The notes: generated by a model not told the origin, from the sequence alone. 62,096 nt of DNA from Candidatus Saccharimonadota bacterium (GCA_003164595.1 PLTT01000013.1:72042-134137), one strand, 5' to 3'. Shown: positions 15,811-24,450, counted from the first letter of the stretch. Numbers and translations are program-made.

Positions 15811-16896
15811 TCAAGCTTTAGCGTGGCGACGACGATACAGGACGTCTTTATACTCTTGACGCTCACCCAGCCAAAAACTACTAATCATTAAGGTAATAAT
15901 ACCCAGCGAAGGCCAAGCAACCCACAGCCAGTTCTTGGTATTGTCAAAGAATTTTGTCAGGCCAGTTGGTGTCGGTGTCGGTAGATGGTAGTTTGTGGTA
16001 TATATACTCGCTGAGCCCGGATTTCTAATTAGGGCGGCAAGTTGCAGGATGTGCGTATTACCATCGGCGTCAGTAACTTTAATAATAACTGGATAGTAGC
16101 CTTGTTGTGAAAAGCTATGTTTGATGATTATTGAGGTATTGGTGTTGGTTAGTATTTCGGTTTCTTTCGTGTCACCCCAGCTGATTGTGACAGTTATTGG
16201 TGGCGTTCCACCCTGAACTTGCAATGGCCAACTAAAAGTGTTGTTTACGACAAATGTCTGATAGTGGAAATTACTGACAACCAATAAAGGCAACGCAGGT
16301 TCTTGATTCAGCTGGGTAGGCGTGGAGATATTTACTGGTGTTACTCTTGCTGCTTTAACTTCATAAGTGACCGTAACTCCAGAGCTGTCAGGTCCCGGTT
16401 GGTCTGAGATGTTGTATGGTCGAGCCATTAGTGCGTTTGTACCAATGTACAAACTTAGCTCGACTTGAAAAGTCCCACCCGTAGTACACATGCTAGTCCC
16501 ACTAAAAAGACCATTATCATACAGGTTTACATATGAGTTATCCGGGCAATAACCATCTACCACAATATTAGAGTCATTAAAGGCAAATCCCTCGGTCGGT
16601 GAGGTTATAATTGCCGGTGTGGTTACTGGAGCAGCTACTACGACAGCTGTGACAGTGTACGAATCAGCAACCACTCTATAAGTCCATTCAAATATCACTA
16701 CACCAAAAACCATTACGACCAACATCGTAATAGGGTGGAGTATGATCCGCTTGTGAAGCGGTCTCGCCTTACGTATTTGCTGCCTGATAATCCTTTTTTT
16801 TGGATCGCGACGTAGTGATTTTATCTGGGAGTTTTTGAACTTAGTTGTTGTCTTTCGACGACCCGCGCTCTTACTTTTGGTGTTTGTATTTTTCAT
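15811..16896 (-). CDS. membrane-anchored PKD/Ig-like surface protein
   Basis: A 361-residue protein with a strongly basic cytoplasmic N-terminus, a membrane segment at about 57-75 (HPITMLVVMVFGVVIFEW), an extracellular Ig-like domain (about 95-180, with Cys residues in GYCPD and SMCTTGG), a PKD-like domain (about 215-290, ITVTISWGDTKETEI ... YYPVIIKVTDADG), and a C-terminal membrane helix near 325-345. It faces out of the cell with both ends inside. It is divergent from the surface-protein genes that follow on the plus strand and probably belongs with them. TATAAT lies 26 nt before its ATG. Confidence 0.7.
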   Translation of the reverse strand: MKNTNTKSKSAGRRKTTTKFKNSQIKSLRRDPKKRIIRQQIRKARPLHKRIILHPITMLVVMVFGVVIFEWTYRVVADSYTVTAVVVAAPVTTPAIITSPTEGFAFNDSNIVVDGYCPDNSYVNLYDNGLFSGTSMCTTGGTFQVELSLYIGTNALMARPYNISDQPGPDSSGVTVTYEVKAARVTPVNISTPTQLNQEPALPLLVVSNFHYQTFVVNNTFSWPLQVQGGTPPITVTISWGDTKETEILTNTNTSIIIKHSFSQQGYYPVIIKVTDADGNTHILQLAALIRNPGSASIYTTNYHLPTPTPTGLTKFFDNTKNWLWVAWPSLGIITLMISSFWLGERQEYKDVLYRRRHAKA

Positions 16897-17018
16897 TATT
16901 TATTTTTAAGTAACTTATGATGATTATACCATATTATGCTTTCTTTCACCCTTGGGTCGTAATATCAAATTCAGCAGGGTGTACTATTAAGGTATGGGTG
17001 GAGAATACAACAAGTCCA

Positions 17019-17600
17019 ATGTTAATACGTTATAAAAAGTCTGTCATAGTGATAATGCTTTTCTTTGTAGTTAGTACCATTGTCCTAATTGTTCTTTACT
17101 ACCAATTTAGTCAACCCAGTAAAGCTACAGTAATTAACAGTCCTTATCCCACTCCTACACCTTCAGGTGTCAACCTAGTACCACAGAGCTTCACGAATGA
17201 ATTCGTTACTTTTAACTATCCGAACGTTATGTCATTTCGTCCGACACCGAGTTTTGGGCAGCCTATAGTTAGTGTTATCAGCCTCTCGTACCCAGATACT
17301 CAAACTTGGCTGCTTAGTATCGAGATATCGAACATTCCTTCAGGGAACCTAAATGATAACGGTGCCTATAAACTGCGAATTTCTGAACCTACTATCTACG
17401 AATTATCTGAGACCAATATCAATGGTACGCAAATTCCAATAATGATTGACACTACTTCGCAAACTTTCAAGAAGGTGGCCTTTTTGGTAAACGGTCAGTA
17501 TCAGGCGGTTATCTCACTTGCTGGAGAAGACCCAAACGGTAATACATCTCTTGATAATACCCTTCAGATGGTCTTGGCTTCTTGGCAATGGCACGCCTGA
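17019..17600 (+). CDS. membrane-anchored extracellular protein, function unknown
   Basis: A 193-residue protein with a short basic start, one membrane helix (about residues 8-27, VIVIMLFFVVSTIVLIVLYY), a Pro/Thr linker and an extracellular domain of alternating strands that ends in LQMVLASWQW. The layout recalls PsbP-like or DUF-type lipid-anchored domains, but I do not recognise the family. The frame is open from 16917; the ATG at 17019 is preferred because the helix follows directly, although only a distant GGTGGAG is upstream. It is the first plus-strand gene of the surface locus. Confidence 0.6.
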   Translation: MLIRYKKSVIVIMLFFVVSTIVLIVLYYQFSQPSKATVINSPYPTPTPSGVNLVPQSFTNEFVTFNYPNVMSFRPTPSFGQPIVSVISLSYPDTQTWLLSIEISNIPSGNLNDNGAYKLRISEPTIYELSETNINGTQIPIMIDTTSQTFKKVAFLVNGQYQAVISLAGEDPNGNTSLDNTLQMVLASWQWHA

Positions 17601-17605
17601 TTGAG

Positions 17606-17635
17606 TTGATTGTAAGGGGGTGAATGCAATACAAT
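17606..17635 (+). promoter_or_regulatory. candidate promoter of secreted-protein gene
   Basis: TTGATT (17606-17611), 18-nt spacer, TACAAT (17630-17635). It ends 11 nt before the ATG at 17647; the leader would be about 5 nt and has no Shine-Dalgarno site. Confidence 0.5.
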
Positions 17636-17646
17636 AATGCTTAGAC

Positions 17647-18678
17647 ATGAGACTTAGTCATATTTTTGTACTGCCGGTACTATTGCTCACGAGCTTTTTT
17701 GCATCGTTCTCCTCAAGCTCAACTTATCAGATACAAAGTTATAGCATTGGCCCGGGATCTACAAATAATTCTGCTTCAACGACTTACTCGTTGCAGGGTA
17801 GCGTGGGAGAGCAAGCCAACGGTTCAACCTCAAGTACAACATATACCAATCACAACGGTTCAATACTAACTGAGCAGTTGAATATTCCTCCGGCTCCGAC
17901 CCTGAGCAACGGATCAAATACATACTACAATCAGTTAAACGCTATTATAAACACCGGTGGAGCAACGACAGATACTACATTCGCTATTGCTGTGTCGACT
18001 AACAACTTTACCTCTACTCTGGGGTATGTATCGGCAGCTGGGACAATTGGAGCATCGCAGGTTTACCAGAGCTACATTGCCTGGGGCAGTGGTAGCGGTA
18101 CTTTTGTTACAGGCTTATCGCCGTCGACAACCTATGAGCTTCGAGTTGCAGCAATGCAGGGGAAGTTTACCAATACAAATTTTGGGGCATATGCAACTGC
18201 TACTACCGCGGCTTTTACGACTAGTTTTTCAATTTCACCAAACTCACTAAGTCTAGGAACACTGTTACCAGGAAGTGTAACGACTAGCAGTAGTTTAACG
18301 ATGACCTTTGCTACAACTGCCGCTGCTGGAGGTGATGTCTATGTATACGGTCTAAATAGTGGTTTAAATAGTGCCAATAGATCCTACACTATAGCAGCCG
18401 CAAGCACGAACCTAGCCACAGCTTCTTCAGGGTTCGGAATTCAAGCAACTAGTGCAACAGAGACCTATGGTGGCCCGTTGACAATTCTAGCTCCATATAA
18501 TGGTAGTGCTAATAACGTCGGGACCGAGAATACCGCACCAGCCCATATGTTTACGTCTAGTACGGCAATATTGGGTGGCTCCGCGAGCATTAATGTTCAG
18601 GCAAAAAGTTCAAACATTACACCCTCAGCATCTGATTACAGCGAAACATTGACCTTTATTGGAGCCTCTAGCTACTAA
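17647..18678 (+). CDS. secreted fibronectin-like surface protein
   Basis: A 343-residue Sec-exported protein. A hydrophobic signal (MRLSHIFVLPVLLLTSFFASFS) is followed by a Ser/Thr/Gly-rich stretch, a fibronectin type III-like region (about 85-185, with LSPSTTYELRVAAM), and a C-terminal beta domain that begins ISPNSLSLGTLLPGSV and ends YSETLTFIGASSY. This ending is the same kind as in the three downstream paralogs (YTDTITLVGAGTF). There is no sortase motif or C-terminal anchor, so retention must be by binding. It starts a run of six co-oriented surface genes. Confidence 0.75.
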   Translation: MRLSHIFVLPVLLLTSFFASFSSSSTYQIQSYSIGPGSTNNSASTTYSLQGSVGEQANGSTSSTTYTNHNGSILTEQLNIPPAPTLSNGSNTYYNQLNAIINTGGATTDTTFAIAVSTNNFTSTLGYVSAAGTIGASQVYQSYIAWGSGSGTFVTGLSPSTTYELRVAAMQGKFTNTNFGAYATATTAAFTTSFSISPNSLSLGTLLPGSVTTSSSLTMTFATTAAAGGDVYVYGLNSGLNSANRSYTIAAASTNLATASSGFGIQATSATETYGGPLTILAPYNGSANNVGTENTAPAHMFTSSTAILGGSASINVQAKSSNITPSASDYSETLTFIGASSY

Positions 18679-18697
18679 ATAACATGTGGATAAGTAT

Positions 18698-18726
18698 TTG
18701 CTCTAGTTTAAAGCATTAGCTACAAT
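18698..18726 (+). promoter_or_regulatory. promoter of surface paralog 1
   Basis: TTGCTC (18698-18703), 17-nt spacer ending GCATTAGC, TACAAT (18721-18726). Preceded by GGATAAGTA, as in front of paralog 3. Confidence 0.7.
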
Positions 18727-18771
18727 AACATTTAGCGGAAAAAAATAAAGCATCTTATGTGAGGTGACGAT

Positions 18772-19824
18772 ATGAAATCTTATTGCAATAAATTAATGAA
18801 ATCGGCTTTCATTATAACTGCCGGAGTCCTAGTTCTCGTAAATGTTCTAGTATTTGCGCCAAAAGTATTTGCCCTAACTTATCTAGTTAAACCAGAAGTA
18901 ATCCTAACGAACATGGACGCTACAGGAGCTAGTGCCGTTATTATTGAATTTACGACATCAGCTTCCAACACTGGGACTGGCCTATCTCTTACGTTTACTG
19001 GTTGGACGGGTGGTGCTAGCGGTAGCGTCGCCGGATCACAGACTGTCGCTCAGAACTATAACGGAATCTCCTGTACGACCATAACTGGTGCAGCCAGCTA
19101 TATCCCAGGAGCGCCTACGGCATCCGGTTCAAGTGCAACAGTAACCTTCGCTGGTATTACCACTGAAACTGCCAGTCACTCCTATTGTGCCGTTCTAACC
19201 GGCTCAGCCGTTACTAACCCAACGGCCGCAAATAGTTATCCTGCAGTCTTAACTGACGGAACAGATGTCGCCGCCACAGTTGCCGTTGACGTGATCACTA
19301 ACGACCAAGTTGTCGTTAGTGCTACAGTACCACCAACTTTTACTTTAGTTTTAAGTGGTAACACCGATGCCTTTGGAACCCTTTCTACCATCGTCGCTAA
19401 CGCCTCTGCCGGTGTAACCTGTACTCTTAGTACCAATGGTACTGGTTGGTATCTATACGGAATAGACAGTAGTGCTGGCTTGGTGTCGCCGAGTAGTGGA
19501 CACACCATCCCTGCATTAACCTTTGGCACTAACAAGACAATATCTGCCGGGACGGAAGACTATATTACTGGATTACCATCTGGAAGTACCACCCCAGGAA
19601 CTGGCGGTGGATCAGTTACTCTTCCAGCAGCTTACAGCTCTTCTGGACTTGGTAACGGTGCCGGACTTGGTAATACTCAACTTCGTAACTTAGCTTCCTA
19701 CACAGTAGGCCCAACATCAGGCGCTACAGTAGTAGTCAAAGAATTTACGTCAATTACAGCTACGACTCCTGAGGGTGCCGACTACACCGACACCATTACA
19801 TTGGTTGGTGCCGGGACGTTCTAG
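18772..19824 (+). CDS. tandem secreted surface protein, paralog 1
   Basis: A 350-residue exported protein. Signal peptide about residues 1-35 ends APKVFA, then LTYLVKPEV starts the mature part. Two beta-rich regions follow: about 36-190 (with GWTGG, SHSYCAVL and three Cys overall) and about 195-350 (VPPTFTLVLSG, TCTLSTNGTGWYLYGI, TPGTGGGSVTL, end TDTITLVGAGTF). No membrane anchor or LPXTG motif. It is Ala/Thr/Gly/Ser-rich, as in S-layer or pilin-like subunits. It has its own promoter and a GAGGTGACGAT site. The 257 bp at 19501-19757 are identical to paralog 3. Confidence 0.8.
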   Translation: MKSYCNKLMKSAFIITAGVLVLVNVLVFAPKVFALTYLVKPEVILTNMDATGASAVIIEFTTSASNTGTGLSLTFTGWTGGASGSVAGSQTVAQNYNGISCTTITGAASYIPGAPTASGSSATVTFAGITTETASHSYCAVLTGSAVTNPTAANSYPAVLTDGTDVAATVAVDVITNDQVVVSATVPPTFTLVLSGNTDAFGTLSTIVANASAGVTCTLSTNGTGWYLYGIDSSAGLVSPSSGHTIPALTFGTNKTISAGTEDYITGLPSGSTTPGTGGGSVTLPAAYSSSGLGNGAGLGNTQLRNLASYTVGPTSGATVVVKEFTSITATTPEGADYTDTITLVGAGTF

Positions 19825-19897
19825 TATTATAAGGATATAAAAAATTTAAGCCATATAACATCGGCCGTCTACAAATAAAAGCAAATTTCAAAAAAAC

Positions 19898-19926
19898 TTG
19901 TGTTAATTATAAGCATTAGCTACAAT
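19898..19926 (+). promoter_or_regulatory. promoter of surface paralog 2
   Basis: TTGTGT (19898-19903), 17-nt spacer ending AAGCATTAGC, TACAAT (19921-19926). The AAGCATTAGCTACAAT block is identical to that of paralog 1. Confidence 0.7.
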
Positions 19927-19965
19927 ACTGCTCAGAATTAAAAATACAAATTCAATGAGGATTAT

Positions 19966-21030
19966 ATGAAATCAACATTACTTAGTAAATTAAAGAAATC
20001 TTATGTATTAGTACTCTTAGGAGCGATTGTTCTGGCGAACCTAGCATCTATTGCTCCAAAAGTTTTCGCTCTAACTTACCTAGTTAAGCCACAAATAATT
20101 CTTACTAATATGAACTCCGGTGGCGGTAGTTCTGTAATAATTGAATTTACAACCTCTGCTACAAACGTCGGTACTTCTCTATCTCTAACCTTTACCGGTT
20201 GGACGGGTGGTGCAGCCGGTGCGGTTAATGTTACCCAGCCGGTATTATCTACCTACAACTCTATAGCTTGTACTACTATAACCGGTGCAACTAGTTACTT
20301 ACCGGGGTCACCAGCAGCTACTGGTTCTGGTGCTACGGTTACTTTCTCTGGTATAACTGCCCTTACCGGTAGTCACTCCTACTGTGCCGTATTAAGTAGT
20401 GCTACTGCCGTAACTAATCCAACGAGCGTAAATAGTTATCCTGCAGTTTTGACCGTTGGAACAGACGCTGCCTCTGGAGTAGCCGTTGATGTTATCTCTA
20501 ACGACCAAGTTGTCGTTACAGCTACAGTTCCTCCTTCCTTCACATTATCGCTTACTGGTGGTGGTACCGATGCCTTCACAGCTAACCTGGCCAGTGGTGT
20601 TGTCGCTACAACGACTGGTGTAACTTGTACTCTTAGTACCAACGGAACCGGATGGTATCTCTACGGAATCGACAATAACGCTGGTTTGCTTTCCGCATCG
20701 AACGGTCACAATATCATTCCAACCAGTTATGCTACCAATTACACACTAAGTGCCGGAACAGAAGGTTATGTAACCGGTGAACCATCTGGAAGTACCACTC
20801 CAGGAACTGGCGGTGGATCAGTTACTCTTTCAGGGATTTACACCTCTTCCGGACTTGGTAACGGTGCCGGACTTGGTAACACCCAACTTCGTACCCTAGC
20901 TTCCTATACTGTAGGTCCAACATCTGGTTCCACGGTAGTAGTCAAGGAATTCGCAGCAATCTCACCAATAACTCCTGCCGCTAGTGACTACACTGACACA
21001 ATCACCTTAGTTGGTGCCGGAACGTTCTAA
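19966..21030 (+). CDS. tandem secreted surface protein, paralog 2
   Basis: A 354-residue exported paralog of the genes at 18772 and 21141. The signal peptide ends APKVFA at residue 35. The first half is closest to paralog 3 (IILTNMN, CAVLSSATAVTNP, GTDAASGVAVDV). The central segment (TGGGTDAFTANLASGVVATTTG) is unique to this copy, and the second half is the most divergent of the three (NNAGLLSASNGHNIIPTSY). It ends TDTITLVGAGTF. TGAGGATTAT gives a ribosome site. The three copies may be alternative or co-assembled subunits. Confidence 0.8.
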   Translation: MKSTLLSKLKKSYVLVLLGAIVLANLASIAPKVFALTYLVKPQIILTNMNSGGGSSVIIEFTTSATNVGTSLSLTFTGWTGGAAGAVNVTQPVLSTYNSIACTTITGATSYLPGSPAATGSGATVTFSGITALTGSHSYCAVLSSATAVTNPTSVNSYPAVLTVGTDAASGVAVDVISNDQVVVTATVPPSFTLSLTGGGTDAFTANLASGVVATTTGVTCTLSTNGTGWYLYGIDNNAGLLSASNGHNIIPTSYATNYTLSAGTEGYVTGEPSGSTTPGTGGGSVTLSGIYTSSGLGNGAGLGNTQLRTLASYTVGPTSGSTVVVKEFAAISPITPAASDYTDTITLVGAGTF

Positions 21031-21071
21031 AAAGACCTTAGTTGATAAACATATTTACTGGGGATAAGTAT

Positions 21072-21100
21072 TTGCACAATGCAAAAACATAAGCTAGAAT
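21072..21100 (+). promoter_or_regulatory. promoter of surface paralog 3
   Basis: TTGCAC (21072-21077), 17-nt spacer ending AAGC, TAGAAT (21095-21100), preceded by GGGATAAGTA. Confidence 0.7.
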
Positions 21101-21140
21101 AGCCATAAGTGATCCAAAAGTAAAAACAAGAAGGTAAACT

Positions 21141-22199
21141 ATGAAATCAAAAATATTCAATAAAATTAAAAAAGCATATTTACTCGCCATTGTAGCTGCG
21201 TTCGTACTGGGCAATGGGCTACTTCTAGCTCCTAAAGTTTTCGCTCTAACTTATCTAGTTAAACCACAAATAATTCTTACTAACATGAATGCTACAGGAT
21301 CTAGTTCCGTTATTATTGAATTTACGACATCAGCCTCTAACACCGGCACCTCTCTATCTCTGACCTTTACCGGTTGGACGGGTGGTGCTGCTGGTTCGGT
21401 TAATACTGTCCAGCCGGTATCAGCTAACTACAACTCAATAGCCTGTACAGCTATAACGGGTGCAAGTAGTTACTTGCCAGGCGTACCAGCAGCTACTGGT
21501 TCTGGTGCTACGGTTACTTTCTCTGGCATAACTACACTTACCGCCAGTCACTCCTACTGTGCCGTATTAAGTAGTGCTACTGCCGTAACCAATCCAACGG
21601 TTGTGAATAGTTATCCTGCAGTTCTGACCTCTGGAACAGACGCCGCCTCAGGAGTCGCCGTTGACGTTATCACCAACGACCAAGTTGTCGTTACTGCAAC
21701 TGTTCCACCATCGTTTACCCTAGTAGTTGGTTCAAACACCGATGCCTTTGGAACCCTTTCTACCATCGCTGCTAACGCCTCTGCCGGTGTAACCTGTACT
21801 CTTAGTACCAATGGTACTGGTTGGTATCTATACGGAATAGATAGCAATGCTGGTCTTACTTCGGCTAATACTTCTCACACCATCCCTGCATTAACCTTTG
21901 GCACTAACAAGACAATATCTGCCGGGACGGAAGACTATATTACTGGATTACCATCTGGAAGTACCACCCCAGGAACTGGCGGTGGATCAGTTACTCTTCC
22001 AGCAGCTTACAGCTCTTCTGGACTTGGTAACGGTGCCGGACTTGGTAATACTCAACTTCGTAACTTAGCTTCCTACACAGTAGGCCCAACATCAGGCGCT
22101 ACAGTAGTAGTCAAAGAATTTACGTCAATTACTGGAACTACACCTGCAGCTACTGACTATACCGATACAATTACATTGGTTGGCGCCGGTACTTTCTAG
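21141..22199 (+). CDS. tandem secreted surface protein, paralog 3 (mosaic)
   Basis: A 352-residue exported paralog. The signal peptide ends APKVFA. The first ~190 residues follow paralog 2, while the second half follows paralog 1, with 21876-22132 identical base for base to 19501-19757. The switch lies near the FTLVVGSNTDAFGTL segment (about 21715-21735), so the gene looks recombinant. It has an AAGAAGGTAAACT site and its own promoter, and ends TDTITLVGAGTF. It is followed after 18 nt by the first anchored Ig-like protein. Confidence 0.8.
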   Translation: MKSKIFNKIKKAYLLAIVAAFVLGNGLLLAPKVFALTYLVKPQIILTNMNATGSSSVIIEFTTSASNTGTSLSLTFTGWTGGAAGSVNTVQPVSANYNSIACTAITGASSYLPGVPAATGSGATVTFSGITTLTASHSYCAVLSSATAVTNPTVVNSYPAVLTSGTDAASGVAVDVITNDQVVVTATVPPSFTLVVGSNTDAFGTLSTIAANASAGVTCTLSTNGTGWYLYGIDSNAGLTSANTSHTIPALTFGTNKTISAGTEDYITGLPSGSTTPGTGGGSVTLPAAYSSSGLGNGAGLGNTQLRNLASYTVGPTSGATVVVKEFTSITGTTPAATDYTDTITLVGAGTF

Positions 22200-22217
22200 T
22201 ATACTTACTAGTAAGGT

Positions 22218-23195
22218 ATGGGGTACAGATCAACTAAGAATTTAGCAATATTTACTTCTCTACAGCTACTGATAATTTCAGTAGCTGTAGGCCTTGTATC
22301 AGCCACTGGTATCCCATCCGGGGTGCACGGTATTACTGTATCACCGGCACTTCAACAGATATCCATTCCACGGGGCCAGCCTAGTTATACATTTAACACT
22401 GGTTTAGCTAACAATACATCACAGACCGTAGTTGTTCAGCTCAGTGCTCGTGATTTTACGGGGTTAAATGAAAGTGGAGCAATTAGTTTTCTAACTCCTC
22501 AGAAGTCGAACAGTAATGTACATTCTTTAGCGCAGAATATTACTTTTGAGTTATCACAGTTTGTTCTAACACCTTACCAGACGACCACAGTCCCAATTAC
22601 TATAGTGAATGCCAATGAGCTTTCTAATGGTGGTCACTACGCCGCAATTATCTATAAAGTCACTTCTGCTCCCGTGCACGGCATTTCTAATCCAGTAAGT
22701 GTCAACGAGGCAGTTTCTAGTCTAGTCTTTGTTACCACAATTGGAACCGGCACACAGTCTCTAGCTTTACAGTACGCATCAATCGGAGATATATCGCTGA
22801 CGTTCCCTAATACAGTTAATTTAGTTTTAACTGATAAGGGTAATACTCAAACCGTGCCAACAGGTGTAGTCCAAATTACTAATGCAAATAATGCCATCGT
22901 TTCACAGACGGAGATAAATACTACCTCAAATCTAATTTTACCGCAGTTCAGTCGAGAGTTTAAAATCAGCCTGACAAGCTATAAATTTAATCCACCAACA
23001 GGATACTATACATTCAAATTTTATTATAAGACCCCCGCTCAAATGGGCTATAGCCTGTATGAAAAGAAATTCATTTTTATCAGCCGTCAAGCAGTCATTC
23101 TAGCTGTGGTTATACTGGTTTTGCTCATCGTCCTGATTGCCCAACGAGTTAAGTCGATTGCAAGAATAAACCCCAGAGATAAATATTCTGCCTGA
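22218..23195 (+). CDS. DUF916/chaperone-like Ig-fold surface protein, C-terminally anchored
   Basis: A 325-residue protein with a signal segment (about 10-35), a beta-sandwich opening ITVSPALQQISIPRGQPSYTF and containing NNTSQTVVVQLSARDF, a second beta domain with TPYQTTTVPITI and GGHYAAIIYKVT, and a C-terminal membrane helix (about 290-310, AVILAVVILVLLIVLIA) with a short basic tail. The plan matches DUF916-type proteins that partner WxL surface proteins in Firmicutes, and the fold recalls pilus chaperones. It follows the paralogs by 18 nt and its start has an AAGGT site. Confidence 0.7.
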   Translation: MGYRSTKNLAIFTSLQLLIISVAVGLVSATGIPSGVHGITVSPALQQISIPRGQPSYTFNTGLANNTSQTVVVQLSARDFTGLNESGAISFLTPQKSNSNVHSLAQNITFELSQFVLTPYQTTTVPITIVNANELSNGGHYAAIIYKVTSAPVHGISNPVSVNEAVSSLVFVTTIGTGTQSLALQYASIGDISLTFPNTVNLVLTDKGNTQTVPTGVVQITNANNAIVSQTEINTTSNLILPQFSREFKISLTSYKFNPPTGYYTFKFYYKTPAQMGYSLYEKKFIFISRQAVILAVVILVLLIVLIAQRVKSIARINPRDKYSA

Positions 23196-23376
23196 GATTG
23201 ACAAGCCAATAATAGGCCTAACTATATTCTCAAACTTGCCAGATGTACCCAGCGACAATTTATGATATTATATTAGGTAGTTTGAGGGGATTAGAAGGTC
23301 TATTCGTAGTGCTATCGTGTGACGACATTTCTAGACAAAGATTATTAAACTAACCAAAGGCAAGCCCCACTAAATT

Positions 23377-24450
23377 ATGAAAATACTTTATCGAGAAAGA
23401 TTCCTTTTTTTTATAGCGACACTAGTTATTGGTGCTATATTTCTGCTTTCTCCAAAGGCCCATGCTGCCTCAACGACTGGGAGTTATCTAACTACCTCAC
23501 CAATATCTGACAACATAACTATCCTTCCAGGGCAGAGAGGATCAACAACTCTTGAAGTCCAGAACAATTCCTCGGTCTCCGAAACAATTACCGTAAAACT
23601 TGATAAGTTTACGCCAAACGGAGACTTGGGCGAAGCCAATATTACTACCCCGAGCGTAACCGATCCTTCAGTTAGCTGGGTACATTTTTCTACGACTAGT
23701 TTTGTTGCTCAACCAGGTGTCTGGAATACCATAACAATGACCATTAACGTCCCGAACTACGCTTCTCTAGGTTATTACTACGCCGTTTTATTCATACCTA
23801 AATCTTCTCAGACAGCCCCGACTACAAGCGATCAGATAAGAGGTGCAAACGCAATATTCGTGCTAATGGATACCAATTCCAGTAACGAGCAACGACAGCT
23901 TACTTTAACAAGCTTTTCGTCAACCAGTGGACTGTATCAATTCCTCCCGGCTACCTTTCAAATTAAAGTCAAGAATAATGGAAATATTAACCTAATTCCA
24001 CAGGGTGATGTGTATATTAGTCGTAGTCCTAACGGCAAAGTGATTGATACTATTGACGTAAATAGTGGCCTTGGGAACGTCCTCCCAGACTCGTCTAGAT
24101 TATTCAGCGCATCATGGGTAGATGGACTCCCCGCATTCGTTAACAAGCTTGTAGGCGGACAGACGATTACCAATAAGAAAGGCCAAAGCATTAAGCAATT
24201 AGATTGGAATTTCTCTGAGCCGATCTCAAAATTCAGATTTGGTAAATATTATGCACATTTAGTGCTTGTCTACAACAACGGTAATCACGACATACCAATA
24301 AATGCTTATCTATCGTTCTGGGTCATACCCTGGAAGCTAATTCTAATAATTATTATAGTTATTGTTGCAATAATCTTCTCCTGGAAAACCATCAGAAAAA
24401 TTGTTAAACAAACGTTTTCACGCCATAAGAAGCAAAACTTTAAGAATTAA
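23377..24450 (+). CDS. DUF916-like Ig-fold surface protein, C-terminally anchored
   Basis: A 357-residue protein with the same plan as its neighbour: signal peptide ending PKAHA (about residue 31), two beta-sandwich domains (ISDNITILPGQRGSTTLEV, NTITMTINVPNYASLGYYYAVL), a long juxtamembrane region, and a C-terminal membrane helix (about 315-335) with a basic cytoplasmic tail. The two proteins together could fold or hold the secreted paralogs at the membrane. The 180 bp upstream contains AT-rich candidate -10 boxes near 23267 but no clear Shine-Dalgarno site. Confidence 0.7.
   Translation: MKILYRERFLFFIATLVIGAIFLLSPKAHAASTTGSYLTTSPISDNITILPGQRGSTTLEVQNNSSVSETITVKLDKFTPNGDLGEANITTPSVTDPSVSWVHFSTTSFVAQPGVWNTITMTINVPNYASLGYYYAVLFIPKSSQTAPTTSDQIRGANAIFVLMDTNSSNEQRQLTLTSFSSTSGLYQFLPATFQIKVKNNGNINLIPQGDVYISRSPNGKVIDTIDVNSGLGNVLPDSSRLFSASWVDGLPAFVNKLVGGQTITNKKGQSIKQLDWNFSEPISKFRFGKYYAHLVLVYNNGNHDIPINAYLSFWVIPWKLILIIIIVIVAIIFSWKTIRKIVKQTFSRHKKQNFKN

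Follow-up and report, generated by a model that had tools for sequence, protein, structure and literature searches.

Positions 15811–24450 of a 62,096-nucleotide stretch of genome from a Candidatus Saccharimonadota bacterium (GCA_003164595.1, PLTT01000013.1:72042-134137; hereafter the window) carry what we read as a divergent second Pam-type surface-fibre system, in addition to the canonical Pam pilus locus of the same genome. We call the window version of the locus type B. It encodes a PamR-like protein, a PamT-like protein, three tandem pilins and two membrane anchors, Anc1 and Anc2, all of which are shown by sequence comparison to be homologous to parts of the canonical locus. In the reading that we favour, with a probability of about 0.6, the anchors would take the C-terminal strand of the subunits and retain them or hand them over, giving rise to a fibre or coat. 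We favour it because the homology between window and canonical pilins lies far above permuted and reversed controls; because pilins, C-terminal strand and WxLIP-like anchors are confined to two loci in the genome; because the anchors of both loci are homologous and have WxLIP_PGBD matches; because the Anc2 model resembles the CsuC and CfaA chaperones and WxLIP; because the strand is the most conserved part of the pilins; because pilin and anchor genes have stayed adjacent; and because WxLIP offers a precedent for strand insertion (PMC10599100).

The canonical locus lies on the same contig, about 50 kb upstream (G000:C7:34182-44439; L010:8182-18439), and contains PamT and PamR proteins scoring above their cut-offs, five tandem pilins, one Pam_pilin_C protein and a single anchor carrying a WxLIP/DUF916-like domain. 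It is flanked by what we take, from the translations, to be ATP synthase genes and an mnmA-like gene. The comparison of three window pilins with the five canonical pilins only was uninformative (3%), and became decisive through the addition of relatives from other genomes: window-type and canonical pilins then aligned over 297 columns in hhalign (probability 99.1%, E value 1.8e-18), with permuted and reversed controls at or below 0.73%. The C-terminal domain of the PamT-like protein matched the pilins (98.9%, E value 1.5e-17), and Anc2 matched both the canonical Pam anchor (E value 1.6e-49) and Anc1 (E value 7.7e-26); reversed and column-permuted alignments for the pilin, PamT-like and anchor pairs remained at or below 2.6% probability. 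The PamR-like protein and this genome's canonical PamR share 27% identity. Given the homology of the pilins, the PamT-like C-terminal domain and the anchors, the window locus qualifies as a second, divergent locus of the Pam type. The two versions share PamR-like, PamT-like, pilin and WxLIP-like anchor genes, as well as a common terminal strand of the pilins. The window locus differs in having two distinct anchors instead of one, a divergent PamR and an extra conserved open reading frame (ORF) at 16917–17600, and the window-type version is also found in Moranbacteria and Levybacteria MAGs (metagenome-assembled genomes).

A preliminary description of the locus had proposed that the three exported paralogs in tandem and one related protein, also exported, share a similar last strand and lack a sortase signal or membrane anchor, and the ORF translations bear this out: the subunits have neither a C-terminal membrane helix nor a sorting signal. 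All three tandem pilins end in YTDTITLVGAGTF, and copy 3 is 81% identical to copy 1 and 77% identical to copy 2; the five canonical tandem pilins end in Y(T/S)TTLQLIxxGxY. In a scan of all 868,323 bases of the genome, the strand pattern was found in 11 of the 750 complete proteins of at least 120 amino acids, four in the window locus and seven in the canonical locus; random truncations would be expected to give 0.65. Because the pattern was derived from these very proteins, what matters is that it turns up nowhere else in the genome. Pilin and anchor profiles also match only proteins of the two loci genome-wide, apart from one marginal match (E value 0.002). The strand ATDYTDTITVVGA is better conserved than any other 13-residue window in a set of 43 type-B pilins taken from other genomes, every one of which has F or Y as its last residue.

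Anc1 and Anc2 both have an N-terminal signal peptide and a C-terminal hydrophobic helix by hydropathy. The parallel with DUF916 proteins drawn in the preliminary description is supported by matches to WxLIP_PGBD in five of 10 Anc1 family members and nine of 11 canonical anchors. Window Anc1 alone reaches an E value of 0.038, while the Anc1 and canonical consensus sequences score above the Pfam cut-off and the Anc2 consensus below it; judged by these profile matches, the anchors are probably related, at a distance, to WxLIP (DUF916). The AlphaFold model of Anc2 (predicted local distance difference test, pLDDT, 83) comprises a signal helix, two immunoglobulin (Ig)-like β domains and a terminal helix (residues 319–356). 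Its best PDB neighbours in Foldseek are the chaperones CsuC and CfaA (probability 1.00) and E. faecium WxLIP, alone and WxL-bound (9i1y/9i25), in keeping with the chaperone-like fold anticipated for the anchors. Searching the PDB by sequence, whether with individual proteins or with pilin and anchor profiles, returned nothing usable, only antibody and other chance matches, and no sequence similarity to the chaperones. In the model, the least ordered internal loop (residues 146–156) sits in a long hairpin of the first domain, and we infer that this hairpin may be equivalent to the WxL-binding hairpin of WxLIP, whose strand has been proposed from AlphaFold predictions to complete the WxL sandwich (PMC10599100). 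Like chaperone–usher pili of the CsuC and CfaA type, the window system combines subunits that terminate in a conserved C-terminal β-strand with a predicted two-Ig-domain chaperone-like fold (modelled for Anc2); unlike them, its anchors are membrane-tethered. No usher-sized companion is conserved in the mapped loci, although no genome search aimed at the usher family was made.

The probable kinship of the anchors with WxLIP also supports the main rival explanation, in which secreted adhesin subunits stay bound, singly and permanently, to Anc1 and Anc2 as a coat on the cell surface and no polymer forms. WxL/WxLIP clusters of Firmicutes likewise encode secreted β-sandwich proteins together with a protein that consists of a signal peptide, two Ig domains, the first DUF916-like, and a C-terminal membrane helix; most pair one WxLIP with two WxL proteins, and the published account treats them as an anchored platform rather than as a polymer (PMC10599100). 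The window locus also has no assembly platform. Against display, similar subunits repeated in tandem, of which the canonical locus has five, better suit a polymer, as does the naming of the canonical relatives as pilin subunits in NCBIfam, and the pilins are not recognizable as WxL domains. The window locus further differs from WxL/WxLIP clusters in having two anchors and several such subunits, and the second anchor domain is not recognized as DUF3324. We regard permanent display of single subunits as rather unlikely.

The model of pilin copy 3 (pLDDT 75) is essentially all-β, in two regions, with the last strand at residues 344–351; its one long helix belongs to the signal peptide (residues 2–28). 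A Trp-x-Leu in the motif GWYLYG, together with the terminal strand, had led us to consider the pilins as WxL domains, an assignment rejected at the sequence level. The fold bears on the possibility of a divergent sortase-type or type IV-type pilus locus. Saccharibacteria possess type IV pili (PMC12206443), and the genome has two sortase genes, on other contigs and unlinked to either Pam locus (G000:C12:7842-8243 and G000:C5:33705-34043; L065, L066). However, the window subunits have no LPXTG-type C-terminus, the β-strand itself being the end of the protein; there is no sortase in the locus; and the modelled pilin, all-β apart from the signal helix and short turns, has none of the long N-terminal helix that mature type IV pilins retain. 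A locus of either type is thus very improbable.

The pairing of secreted subunits with membrane-anchored chaperone-like or WxLIP-like proteins, as previously suggested for the window, is conserved across many Saccharibacteria and other classes of the Candidate Phyla Radiation (CPR). Anc2, identified as the window-type anchor by scores above 300 bits with a clear gap below, occurs in 32 of 198 genomes of the order, and the window-type pilin in 35, including all 32 with Anc2. In 31 of these 32 genomes the two genes share a strand, with Anc2 on the 3' side of the pilin and mostly less than 150 bases away. The Fisher value for co-occurrence (8e-34) is inflated by the relatedness of the genomes, which makes adjacency the stronger point. 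Canonical-type anchors are also present in many Anc2 genomes; thus, two systems per cell are common. The three window pilins, used as queries against named genomes, retrieved no match, whereas the anchor profile succeeded: on named contigs, the order T–pilin–Anc2–Anc1 was found in Saccharibacteria and Moranbacteria and, with another order, the genes occur in Levybacteria. The succession of pilin and then anchor is kept in both Moranbacteria and Levybacteria. The Anc1–Anc2 order of the window is the reverse of that in most relatives. Anc1 and Anc2 form separate groups (support 100/99 and 100/100, respectively), so the anchor pair is old. Low-complexity Thr/Ser/Gly-rich secreted proteins may resemble each other, but the notion that unrelated secreted adhesins and Ig membrane proteins are neighbours by chance is refuted by the adjacency kept in 31 of 32 genomes and several CPR classes, and by profile homology far above the controls.

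For the type-B system, we propose that the pilins are exported by Sec as β-sandwich subunits whose C-terminal strand, with its free aromatic carboxy-terminus, would be bound by the Ig-like face of the membrane-tethered Anc1 or Anc2, much as WxLIP is predicted to complete WxL with an inserted strand or as periplasmic chaperones cap the subunits of fimbriae. The anchors would keep the subunits folded and attached at the membrane of a presumably monoderm cell, and would either retain them or pass each to the next subunit, producing a coat or short fibre with neither usher nor sortase. The PamT-like protein is possibly a special subunit at the tip or base, and the PamR-like protein may be accessory.

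Several observations weigh against this proposal. The window proteins fall below every curated Pam cut-off: the PamR-like protein matches CPR_pilus_PamR at 1e-60 with 205 bits (cut-off 300; canonical copy 359), and the PamT-like protein matches PamT in its N-terminal part only, at 2.2e-8 with 33.8 bits (cut-off 240; canonical 264–268). The window pilins match no Pam model, and none of 15 type-B pilins matches the NF058581 pilin C domain at an E value of 0.01; the canonical tandem pilins are likewise under its cut-off (33–44 bits against 55). The WxL domain PF13731 has no match in the genome at an E value of 10, and none in pilin members or consensus. The pilin model has a moderate predicted template modelling (TM) score of 0.45 and no convincing PDB neighbour. 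The superpositions of Anc2 on the chaperones and WxLIP are loose (TM score by query 0.32–0.35, root-mean-square deviation 7–13 Å), and RbmA and other tandem Ig proteins match the model as well. The contact between anchor and subunit is one that we infer. Finally, cryo-electron tomography of the relative TM7x, whose Pam content lies outside this analysis, was reported to show no more than two classes of filament, interpreted as type IV pili (PMC12206443).

The same cut-offs define the novelty of the locus. NCBIfam (June 2026) holds Pam pilus families for CPR bacteria (NF058578 PamR, NF058579 PamT and NF058581 CPR_Pam_pilin_C); NF058580, considered as a further member, is a lipase model and was rejected. 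The kind of system is therefore already named, as are WxL/WxLIP clusters, and the word "undescribed" used in the preliminary description does not hold for it. Since every curated cut-off is missed and no Pam model matches the pilins, the window version is new as a variant, a distinct and previously unnamed sister of the Pam system. A full-text search of a limited literature collection found no paper on Pam or a related CPR pilus.

The genes of the locus are listed in Table 1. The six proteins initially described are all present; that account omitted the conserved ORF at 16917–17600, the PamR kinship of the protein at 15811–16896 and the homologous locus in the same genome. The ORF, whose true start is probably nearer 17019, has no match in Pfam or NCBIfam, and its relatives adjoin type-B loci in at least seven other genomes. 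PamR relatives also adjoin type-B loci in other genomes.

Table 1. Genes of the type-B Pam locus; coordinates are those of the window.
Feature	Length (amino acids)	Position	Strand	Characteristics
PamR-like protein	361	15811..16896	-	NCBIfam CPR_pilus_PamR; divergent orientation relative to the other genes; N-terminal membrane segment, Ig/PKD-like domains, C-terminal hydrophobic segment
Conserved locus protein	227 as called	16917..17600	+	Single N-terminal membrane segment; family ends -SWxW
PamT-like exported protein	343	17647..18678	+	Ends YSETLTFIGASSY
Type-B Pam pilin copy 1, exported	350	18772..19824	+	Profile–profile match to canonical Pam pilins
Type-B Pam pilin copy 2, exported	354	19966..21030	+	Identity to copy 3, same C-terminal strand
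Type-B Pam pilin copy 3, exported	352	21141..22199	+	AlphaFold: two β-sandwich regions
Chaperone/anchor 1 (Anc1)	325	22218..23195	+	Signal peptide, WxLIP/DUF916-like Ig domain, second domain, C-terminal membrane helix
Chaperone/anchor 2 (Anc2)	357	23377..24450	+	Signal peptide, two Ig-like domains, C-terminal membrane helix

The pilin genes (18772–22199) are mosaic: copies 1 and 3 share an identical stretch of about 180 bases in the C-terminal half (alignment columns 781–960), and copies 2 and 3 are closer to each other in the N-terminal half, a pattern that suggests gene conversion among the tandem copies. Promoter and terminator scans gave chance-level results only. Downstream of type-B anchors in relatives lie very large, mostly signal-bearing proteins (909–1524 amino acids), some with a Peptidase_S74 domain or the carbohydrate-binding domain CBM_4_9 (L047:13476-17120, L049:4975-8670, L050:13097-15826, L051:14334-17693, L052:14396-18970 and L064:1474-6024); no such protein follows the anchors in the window. 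Canonical loci of several genera have a bactofilin-like protein with a membrane segment, divergent beside PamT (L010:7035-8084; similar ORFs in L056, L057, L059, L060 and L062). Outside Saccharibacteria (L181, L183, L187, L195, L199, L201, L202 and L205), relatives of the canonical-type anchor adjoin exported proteins with similar C-terminal strands, for example in Wirthbacteria and Methylomirabilis MAGs, and in Thermoleophilia and Actinomycetes MAGs anchor relatives occur without such strand-bearing neighbours.

How CPR epibionts attach to their hosts is a major open question, on which published genetic work has concentrated mostly on type IV pili. The Pam loci add a second class of surface machinery that exists as two paralogous versions; the second of these, conserved across several CPR classes, is unrecognized by current family models. 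Their anchors are tied to WxLIP, for which structures have been solved (PDB 9i1y, 9i25), and the assembly hypothesis, a C-terminal strand plus a membrane-tethered chaperone, is concrete and testable. Tentatively, and with some doubt, type-B loci might assemble fibres with neither usher nor sortase, through strand complementation from chaperones that remain tethered to the cytoplasmic membrane; such a monoderm counterpart of chaperone–usher assembly would link the WxL/WxLIP display of Firmicutes to true pili, with CPR cells running two such systems in parallel for host contact. As the type-B system is present in several groups of these tiny, host-dependent bacteria, it could be one means by which they hold host cells.

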